From: Spirochaetales bacterium
GTDB taxonomy: Bacteria; Spirochaetota; Spirochaetia; Treponematales; Treponemataceae
Length of the DNA: 64,000 nt
NCBI GenBank assembly: GCA_029098225.1
Contig: JAQXNX010000004.1
Span: forward strand, 1-64,000
Direction: 5' to 3'
Positions 50,542 through 52,863 of this stretch are shown piece by piece (within the stretch, counting starts at the first letter, position 1; every line of letters starts with the position of its first letter). Position numbers and translations under genes: made by a program. The notes beneath the pieces are model-generated. The model did not search any database. It was not told the DNA's origin and saw only the letters and a program-made list of their open reading frames with translations.

Positions 50542-50557
50542 TTTCCTTTTCCTTATA

Positions 50558-50733
50558 AAAAAAGCCGCAGATACAAACGTAATAAACGTAGGTTCTGCGG
50601 CTTCTTTGCCGTCTTTGAGAATATATTTTAAAAAACAAAAAGGCCGTAGATAAAATTTCTTTAATAAGAAATTTTGTCTGCGACCTCTTTGTCTTTATTT
50701 ATTAATATTACAAAAATGAAATAATAGTGTCAA
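50558..50733 (-). promoter_or_regulatory. gltB promoter with two tandem ANTAR-type antitermination units
   Basis: Minus strand: TTGACA (50728-50733), 17-bp spacer, TAATAT (50705-50710). Unit 1: hairpin GAC/GTC with hexaloop AAAGAG (50682-50693), whose 3' arm starts a long terminator (GGTCGCAGACAAAATTTCTT pairing to a strand ending CTACGGCC, then T-run at about 50640). Unit 2: hairpin CGGC/GCCG with hexaloop AAAGAA (50599-50612) and terminator GCCGCAGA to TCTGCGGC with seven T (to about 50558). Two gates in series should tighten control of this very large transcript. Confidence 0.82.
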
Positions 50734-50759
50734 GAAAAAAATAAAATTGTATGTTCTTA

Positions 50760-50788
50760 TTGACAGAAACGTATAAATATATTATTTT
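50760..50788 (+). promoter_or_regulatory. pheA operon promoter
   Basis: TTGACA (50760-50765), 17-bp spacer, TATTTT (50783-50788). The expected start lies at about 50795, on or next to the ATG of the leader peptide (50796), so that peptide may be translated from a leaderless RNA. Confidence 0.6.
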
Positions 50789-50795
50789 GAGATTA

Positions 50796-50888
50796 ATGAT
50801 TTTTGGAATTTCTTTTTTTACATTTTCATTCTTCTCATTTTTTGCTTTCTGGTTTTGGGGCAAAGATAGAGCTGTGCGGAATGAATAG
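50796..50888 (+). CDS. pheL: Phenylalanine-rich leader peptide of the pheA attenuator
   Basis: A 30-residue peptide with 10 phenylalanines, clustered at residues 7-20 (FFTFSFFSFFAFWF), and two tryptophans; it ends at TAG 50886-50888. The antiterminator strand lies in its last codons (50862-50875), downstream of all Phe codons. Such peptides (PheL) let the ribosome measure charged tRNA-Phe: stalling at Phe codons frees the antiterminator, while reading to the stop covers it. The Phe content, position, terminator and downstream phe genes agree. The gene was recognised only from this context, as it is very short. Confidence 0.85.
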   Translation: MIFGISFFTFSFFSFFAFWFWGKDRAVRNE

Positions 50889-50951
50889 AATGTAAAAAAT
50901 TGCTTATAGAAAAAGCGGTTCTATCTTTCCGGGTAGAGCCGCTTTTTTTTT
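50862..50951 (+). promoter_or_regulatory. pheA transcription attenuator (antiterminator/terminator)
   Basis: Terminator: 50913-50925 pairs with 50932-50944 (13 bp, two G-T pairs; core GCGGTTCTATC facing GGTAGAGCCGC), then a run of T to 50951. Antiterminator: AAAGATAGA (50862-50870) pairs perfectly with TCTATCTTT (50920-50928), extended by five more pairs including wobbles (871-875 with 915-919). The helices share the terminator 5' arm and exclude each other. Confidence 0.85.
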
Positions 50952-50953
50952 GA

Positions 50954-51018
50954 GCACTTTTTTTACGAAGTAAAAAAATACGTGAATCAAATAATGGCGT
51001 TTTCGACATTGTTTAATT
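50954..51018 (+). repeat. GCACTTTTTTT two-hairpin repeat, copy 1 (pheA leader)
   Basis: GCACTTTTTTTACGAAGTAA then a second palindrome AATCAAATAATG/CATTGTTTAATT around GCGTTTTCGA. A close copy is at 52975-53039 in the glnN leader. In the first hairpin TTTTTTTAC/GTAAAAAAA here becomes TTTTTTTGC/GCAAAAAAA there, a compensatory change. Confidence 0.65.
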
Positions 51019-51029
51019 TTGGAGGTGTT

Positions 51030-51833
51030 ATGAAAATAGCGTATAGTGGAATTGAAGGAGCTTTTGCATATATAGCTGCAAAAAGAATTTTTCCAGATGA
51101 AGAGTTAATTTCTTATGGAGATTTTCATTCTGCTTATGTGGCAGTTGAAAATAAGGATTGCGATTATGCTATTCTCCCTATAGAAAATAGTTATGCCGGC
51201 GAAGTTGCTCAAGTTAATGATTTAATGTTTCAGGGAAATTTATTTTTGAATGGAGTTTATACATTAAATGTTCAGCAAAATCTTCTTGGTGTAAAAGGAA
51301 CAGATATAGAGAATATTAAACAGGTTATAAGTCATCCACAGGCACTTGAACAAAGTGCAGATTTTTTAAGAAAATATAATATGCAGACAATAGAAGCTGT
51401 AAATACTGCGCGGGCTGCTAAGCAGGTTGCAGAGCTTGGTGATAAAACTGTTGCAGCTATTGCAAGCAAAGAAACTGCTGAATTATACGGACTTGAGATT
51501 TTAGCTGAAGGAATAAATGAAAAACTGGATAATTCAACAAGATTTGCCATTCTTTCGCGTGATGGAGAAAAAAGATTTTCAGATAAAGAAAAAACTGTTG
51601 TAATTATGTTTACTGTAAAAAATGAAGCCGGTGCGCTTGTAAAAGTATTAAATAAACTTGGTGAGTTTGGTTTTAATATGAGCGTAATTCGAAGCAGACC
51701 TCTTCATGGACTTGCCTGGTCATATTATTTTTATATAGAAGCAGAAGGTGAATACGGAACTGCAGAATGGAATCAGATGATTTTAGAAATGCGGTATAGA
51801 TGCGATAAATTAAAAATTTTAGGGAGATTTTAA
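51030..51833 (+). CDS. pheA: Prephenate dehydratase with C-terminal ACT domain
   Basis: 267 residues; converts prephenate to phenylpyruvate. The dehydratase domain (about 1-180) includes YSGIEGAFAYIAA, the GDFHSAYVAVE region, LPIENSYAGEV, and the catalytic threonine in NSTRFAIL. The ACT domain (about 190-267; EAGALVKVLNKLGEFGFNMS, IRSRP) should bind phenylalanine for feedback inhibition. It is monofunctional, without chorismate mutase. The ATG at 51030 follows GGAGG by four bases. It starts a two-gene operon under the Phe attenuator. Confidence 0.92.
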   Translation: MKIAYSGIEGAFAYIAAKRIFPDEELISYGDFHSAYVAVENKDCDYAILPIENSYAGEVAQVNDLMFQGNLFLNGVYTLNVQQNLLGVKGTDIENIKQVISHPQALEQSADFLRKYNMQTIEAVNTARAAKQVAELGDKTVAAIASKETAELYGLEILAEGINEKLDNSTRFAILSRDGEKRFSDKEKTVVIMFTVKNEAGALVKVLNKLGEFGFNMSVIRSRPLHGLAWSYYFYIEAEGEYGTAEWNQMILEMRYRCDKLKILGRF

Positions 51834-51834
51834 T

Positions 51835-52863
51835 ATGAATATGGATTTTGAAAGAAGACTTGCAATTCCTGCAGAAGTAAAGGAACAGTATCCGCTTACA
51901 GGAAAGATAAGCAAAATTGTAGAAGAAAAACGTGCAGAAGTAAAAGCAATTTTTGAAGGAAGAATAAATAAGCTTCTTTTAATTATTGGTCCCTGCTCTG
52001 CAGATAATGAAGTGGCAGTTTTGGATTATATGAAGCGACTCGTTCCAATACAAGAAAAGGTAAAAGATAAAATTATGATGGTTCCGCGAATTTATACAAA
52101 TAAGCCAAGAACTACAGGAGAAGGTTATAAGGGAATGCTTCATCAGCCTGATCCAAACGCAAAGCCAGATTTATTCAAAGGAATTGTTGCCTGCCGTCAT
52201 ATGCACATGCGTGCTGTTTCTGAAACCGGATTTATTTTTGCAGATGAAATGCTTTATCCGGAAAACTATCAGTATCTTGATGATGTTCTTGGATATGTAG
52301 CAGTTGGAGCACGTTCTGTAGAAGATCAGCAGCACCGGCTAACTGCAAGTGGAATAGATGTTCCCGTTGGAATGAAAAATCCTACAAGCGGAGATTATGC
52401 TGTAATGATGAATGCTATTCTAGCCGCTCAACATCCTCATACATTTATTTATCGCGGATGGGAAGTACATTCAGAAGGAAATCCTTGCTGTCATGCCATT
52501 CTTCGCGGATCTACAGATAAGCATGGAACAAATCAGCAGAATTATCATTATGAAGATTTAATTCGGTTGTGTGACGCTTATGATGCGCGTGAGTTAAAGA
52601 ATCCTGGAGTAATTATTGATACAAATCATTCTAACTCAAATAAGAATCCATTTGAACAGCCTCGTATTGTTATGGATGTTCTTAATTCATGTAAACACAG
52701 CGAACGAGTTTCTAAAATTGTAAAAGGATTTATGATTGAAAGTTACATAGAAGATGGTTCTCAAAAAATAGGTGAGGGGATTTATGGAAAATCTATAACC
52801 GATCCTTGTCTTGGCTGGGAGAAAACAGAAAAATTGATTTATGATATTGCAGAAAAAATTTAA
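51835..52863 (+). CDS. aroF: 3-deoxy-7-phosphoheptulonate (DAHP) synthase, class I
   Basis: 342 residues of the AroF/G/H type: LLIIGPCSADNE near residue 50, MMVPRIYTNKPRTTGEGYKG, GARSVEDQQHR, MKNPTSGD, ILRGSTDKHGTN and DTNHSNSNK. It condenses phosphoenolpyruvate and erythrose-4-phosphate, the first step of aromatic synthesis. It begins one base after the pheA stop, so both are under the Phe attenuator; a Phe-sensitive isoenzyme is expected, but the symbol among aroF, aroG and aroH is a guess. Confidence 0.88.
   Translation: MNMDFERRLAIPAEVKEQYPLTGKISKIVEEKRAEVKAIFEGRINKLLLIIGPCSADNEVAVLDYMKRLVPIQEKVKDKIMMVPRIYTNKPRTTGEGYKGMLHQPDPNAKPDLFKGIVACRHMHMRAVSETGFIFADEMLYPENYQYLDDVLGYVAVGARSVEDQQHRLTASGIDVPVGMKNPTSGDYAVMMNAILAAQHPHTFIYRGWEVHSEGNPCCHAILRGSTDKHGTNQQNYHYEDLIRLCDAYDARELKNPGVIIDTNHSNSNKNPFEQPRIVMDVLNSCKHSERVSKIVKGFMIESYIEDGSQKIGEGIYGKSITDPCLGWEKTEKLIYDIAEKI

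Follow-up and report, generated by a model that had tools for sequence, protein, structure and literature searches.

What does the short phenylalanine-rich ORF between the divergent genes gltB and pheA do in this spirochaete, and which RNA structures accompany it? The genome (3.05 Mb) has members of Treponema as its closest named relatives, and the intergenic region holds a promoter, the ORF and a terminator. The window considered here is the whole stretch of 64,000 nt analyzed, positions 1 to 64,000 of contig JAQXNX010000004.1. The relevant features are as follows.

50760–50765, + strand: −35 box TTGACA, overlapped by a degenerate TrpR-like palindrome
50783–50788, + strand: −10 box TATTTT of a sigma70-type promoter, after a 17-nt spacer and 7 nt before the leader ATG
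50796–50888, + strand: Phe leader peptide ORF, 30 codons and TAG, 10 Phe codons, no Shine-Dalgarno sequence
50814–50832, + strand: strand 1 (codons 7–13), partner of strand 2
50857–50870, + strand: 3' arm of the apical hairpin enclosed by the 1:2 helix, including the species-specific pairing segment 50862–50870
50878–50899, + strand: strand 2, over the leader stop codon, partner of strand 1 or, via 50878–50894, of strand 3
50911–50930, + strand: strand 3, consisting of the terminator's 5' arm plus its loop, with the core GCGGTTCTATC invariant in 17 relatives
50931–50951, + strand: strand 4, the terminator's 3' arm with the T-run
51021–51025, + strand: Shine-Dalgarno sequence GGAGG of pheA
51030–51833, + strand: pheA, monofunctional prephenate dehydratase (PDT), with PDT and weak ACT domain matches
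51835–52863, + strand: class I DAHP synthase of the AroFGH type, starting 1 base after pheA

Leader ORF and its conservation

The predicted product of the ORF 50796–50888 is MIFGISFFTFSFFSFFAFWFWGKDRAVRNE. The probability of at least 10 Phe per 29 codons is about 8e-7 if Phe usage is taken as 5%, and 0.003 under the base composition of the leader itself. The first-pass annotation of this DNA had already identified the 30-codon ORF with its 10 Phe codons, the start of pheA, the DAHP synthase gene behind it, and a terminator with a T-run between the leader ORF and pheA, and all of them are found at these places. A domain match to chorismate mutase is absent from the pheA product of the window. 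A longer ATG start of the leader (MFLLTETYKYI...) was dropped, being upstream of the conserved promoter.

Among 200 screened genomes of the genus, 47 encode a close PheA, and nearly all of the 47 upstream regions were inspected. The element is kept in at least 33 Treponema genomes. In most of them it precedes pheA, and in three (G163, G159 and, by sequence, G158) it stands directly before a DAHP synthase gene without pheA, which is an independent argument for aromatic supply as the target. A Phe-rich leader is present in 19 of the 22 genomes with unfused PheA; the element is absent in the other three (L003, L053, L054), where pheA follows an unrelated gene. In the 16 distinct 30-codon leaders of the window's clade, Phe occupies positions 8, 12, 13, 16, 18 and 20 without exception and positions 3, 7, 10 and 15 nearly so. 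Where chorismate mutase and PDT are fused (CM-PDT), most genomes have an aromatic-rich leader that is shorter or longer; these leaders have mainly aromatic richness in common and little sequence. The RNA model of the element matches at most once per genome, in 37 of 196 genomes, and all matches examined are located before pheA or DAHP synthase. Across the order it matches 15 of 294 genomes, one of them (L117) outside the genus. The central proposal of the first pass, attenuation upstream of pheA and DAHP synthase by a ribosome translating a Phe leader peptide, is thus supported, as Phe codons, antiterminator and terminator are kept in at least 33 genomes.

Several leaders deviate from this pattern. 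In L025, L029 and L023 the leaders are Phe-rich, and either a significant antiterminator or a terminator is missing; L025 and L029 have leader-like ORFs with 14 Phe (MTFNFSFKSFNFFSFSFFSFAFSAFF...) upstream of a PheA-containing fusion of about 600 aa, with a long, different terminator and no antiterminator identified. In L033, a MAG labelled Lachnospiraceae, an aromatic-rich leader MKTLMNNYYFYYSFEVRFFAYSFCDGKNNDPVS and a weak terminator precede a Treponema-related CM-PDT gene. The terminator picked by the script for L065 was wrong, and the true one is seen in its relative L066.

Terminator, antiterminator and protector helix

The terminator hairpin (50911–50946) comprises 16 bp with a predicted energy of −21.8 kcal/mol and is followed by a run of nine T. 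The fold of the leader RNA has z = −5.05 relative to dinucleotide shuffles. Pairing of strand 3 with a strand over the leader stop codon is significant (p<0.05) in 21 of 33 species, with a median p of 0.027, in a shuffle test that ignores relatedness. The window's own copy of this conserved antiterminator is weak (−10.4 kcal/mol, p=0.063), the one in L039 is poor, and the leader frame of L046 is shifted, possibly by an assembly error. At one antiterminator pair position A-U, G-U, G-C and U-A are all found across relatives, one alignment behind the exchanges being hand-made. Moreover, the core of strand 3 is invariant in the 17 relatives and both partner strands are variable, as expected for a strand with two partners. 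In L037 (= L032) the leader stop lies 6 codons further downstream, and the pairing strand is still near the ancestral stop position (−14.3 kcal/mol, 0 of 300 shuffles).

The helix between strands 1 and 2 was recovered unprompted by RNAalifold, with two-sided changes at three pairs. It has 8 two-sided cells versus 3.0 ± 1.6 in shuffles (0 of 500, relatedness ignored), and 95% of cells are paired in this protector helix, which includes the regulatory Phe codons. In particular, the window and its nearest relative have matching changes in the two strands, GCTTT to TCATT in strand 1 and AAAGC to AATGA in strand 2. Elsewhere, the alternation TTC/TTT at Phe codon 12, a synonymous change, tracks G/A in the partner strand. 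The alignment of orthologous pheA leaders, suggested in the first pass as a check, thus contains both conserved Phe codons and compensatory base changes. The 1:2 part alone has fold z values from −0.4 to −4.2, and as a bare duplex it is suggestive only, pairing being easy between a U-rich and an A-rich strand. With the covarying 1:2 helix in addition to the stop-codon antiterminator and the terminator, the predicted design is the classical three-structure one (1:2, 2:3, 3:4). The terminators are thermodynamically stronger than the antiterminators (about −22 vs about −12 kcal/mol), so the switch must be kinetic; kinetic control is usual for such switches.

The first-pass annotation had instead proposed a two-structure switch, with codons 23–25 (50862–50870, ORF nucleotides 67–75) as the antiterminator strand and no protector helix. 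The 9-bp pairing of this segment does exist in the window and is strong there (−20.1 kcal/mol, p=0.003), but it is not conserved: it is significant in only 1 of 33 species (median p 0.54, compared with 21 of 33 for the stop-codon strand) and not in the other 32, including the closest relative with 87% PheA identity. Close relatives thus keep the Phe codons and the mutually exclusive helices, with no significant pairing of this particular segment. As a ribosome at the stop codon, with a footprint of about 30 nt, would also leave 50862–50870 uncovered, and the conserved, covarying 1:2 helix contradicts a switch of two structures, we consider this version improbable.

Covariation also bears on the idea that the product of the ORF is itself functional, as a small hydrophobic membrane peptide or in the manner of a type I toxin, the terminator just ending its transcript. 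The 30-residue product is indeed very hydrophobic and conserved in sequence, but the covarying helices, including the synonymous change, argue against a function of the peptide, as do the fused-clade leaders with little common sequence; the peptide has no Pfam match and, where examined, occurs only before pheA or DAHP synthase, which makes such a role very unlikely. In Firmicutes, T-boxes, metabolite riboswitches and RNA-binding proteins control aromatic operons, and one of these could be at work here, with the ORF being incidental. The conserved Phe codons argue against an incidental ORF, a T-box covariance search of the leader gave no match, and Rfam gave none at the gathering threshold, with chance-level scores below it; we regard this explanation as very improbable. 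The Phe leader-peptide attenuator, with three alternating helices, is the reading retained below.

Predicted leaderless start and proposed mechanism

The transcription start in the window is predicted at 50795–50796, immediately before or at the leader ATG. The same geometry characterizes the unfused clade: −35 box, 17 nt, −10 box, 6–9 nt and ATG, with no Shine-Dalgarno sequence for the leader and the 5' end being predicted. Taken species by species, the anchored promoter stands out from shuffled sequences significantly in about two thirds of this clade. Its sole Shine-Dalgarno-like exception, AGGA of L041, is within the −10 box, and the downstream gene, unlike the leader ORF, has a Shine-Dalgarno sequence in every case. 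Leaders of the fused-clade genomes L064, L067 and L069, and that of L009, are preceded by GGAGG. As the ATG is located 6–9 nt past the −10 box and a Shine-Dalgarno sequence is absent, the leader ORF of the unfused clade is predicted to be leaderless. Leaderless genes have been predicted in spirochaetes at low frequency (PMC3160421).

About 20 nt separate the last conserved Phe codon from the start of strand 2, and the TAG lies within this strand. When the RNA is folded without the 3' arm of the terminator, strand 3 is paired upstream with a probability of 0.5–0.8 in most species if the ribosome is placed at the last Phe codon, and is mostly free (about 0.25 in most species) if it is placed at the stop. 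Given a footprint of about 30 nt, a ribosome on the Phe codons would leave strand 2 free, and one at the TAG would cover it. In the proposed mechanism the ribosome would start on the leader ATG at, or a few nucleotides from, the 5' end of the transcript. With ample Phe it would reach the TAG and mask strand 2, the 3:4 terminator would form, and transcription would stop before pheA and DAHP synthase. With scarce Phe it would stall on Phe codons within strand 1 or close to it, so that strands 2 and 3 would pair and the polymerase would read through. If the leader is not translated, pairing of strands 1 and 2 would allow the terminator to form.

The ORF, the three helices, their conservation and the covariation together indicate that the element is very probably a ribosome-mediated transcription attenuator that responds to charged tRNA-Phe; from the sequences we infer the start site, the ribosome positions and the response to Phe.

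A counterpart is seen in L117, a genome of another genus, where a leader of unrelated sequence, MTFNAYYNTFYFYSFYYFKNSRG, with 5 Phe and 6 Tyr and a different terminator, stands before an AroF-type DAHP synthase gene. Its antiterminator strand is at −1 to +14 of the leader stop codon (p=0.007), and its promoter-to-leader arrangement is similar to that of the unfused clade. By its predicted structure it follows the same logic as the Treponema element.

Other elements were observed in the same regions. A degenerate copy of the TrpR-like palindrome TGTTTCTATTGACAGAAACA at 50752–50772 overlaps the −35 box of pheA, and the genome has a gene of the Trp_repressor family. Further copies of the palindrome are located at L107/L108, L109/L110 and L111: two precede trpE, where no obvious Trp leader was found, one lies between ECF transporter S-component-like and ispE-like genes, and one is upstream of a paaK-like gene. 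Runs of His codons in this genome belong to metal-binding-type proteins, with no his leader among them. Another palindrome, TTTTTACGAAGTAAAAA, is located at 50957–50980 between the terminator and pheA and is not found in the other pheA leaders compared; it may be a dispersed repeat, since a second copy is present upstream of trpE (L076). The 5' region of gltB (50542–50715, − strand) contains a tandem pair of strong terminator-like hairpins (z = −9.0). One of them, the second, is directly before the ribosome binding site, and the pair may be another attenuation device, for glutamate synthase.

Relation to known attenuators

The enterobacterial attenuators of pheL/pheA and pheST share with the Treponema element a Phe-rich leader, mutually exclusive 1:2, 2:3 and 3:4 helices and, in the former case, the position upstream of pheA. 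Unlike them, the Treponema element has no Shine-Dalgarno sequence and is predicted to control pheA together with DAHP synthase, and sequence homology is not detectable: against Rfam RF01859 (Phe_leader) the leader scores 19.2 bits, the gathering score being 55, so it is not a member. The element thus appears to work like Phe_leader, outside that sequence family. In trpL of Sinorhizobium meliloti, the ATG of the leader ORF has been shown experimentally to be the 5' end of the transcript (PMC7298713), as is predicted here for Treponema, but that system has Trp codons, regulates trpE(G) and belongs to Alphaproteobacteria. The uORFC-13-1 motif proposed in Acholeplasma (PMC8632094) likewise combines a Phe-coding uORF and a terminator before the DAHP synthase gene aroF; it differs by a ribosome binding site, at least one Phe codon being described, and by the phylum.

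In the papers searched, no leader-peptide attenuator is described for spirochaetes. A transcriptome study of Borrelia raises control by uORFs only as a possibility (PMC10319736), and an earlier prediction may be contained in the principal comparative survey (Lopatovskaya et al. 2010, as cited in PMC4833913). The mechanism itself is known; what appears to be new is its unexpected occurrence in Spirochaetota, where we found none described. On balance, we favor the view that a spirochaete lineage uses leaderless leader-peptide attenuation. In this view, translation of the Phe sensor begins at the very 5' end of the transcript, and its promoter-to-ATG geometry is conserved; the sensor is placed upstream of pheA as well as of DAHP synthase genes standing alone, and another genus has an equivalent whose sequence is unrelated. 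A TrpR-like repressor site overlapping the −35 box may add a layer of control above it.

These results extend classical amino-acid attenuation to Spirochaetota, with comparative evidence of the kind available for the proteobacterial examples. Such an attenuator implies tight coupling of transcription and translation in Treponema, and the conserved, predicted leaderless start offers a test case of whether initiation at the very first codon can keep pace with the polymerase to run an attenuator.
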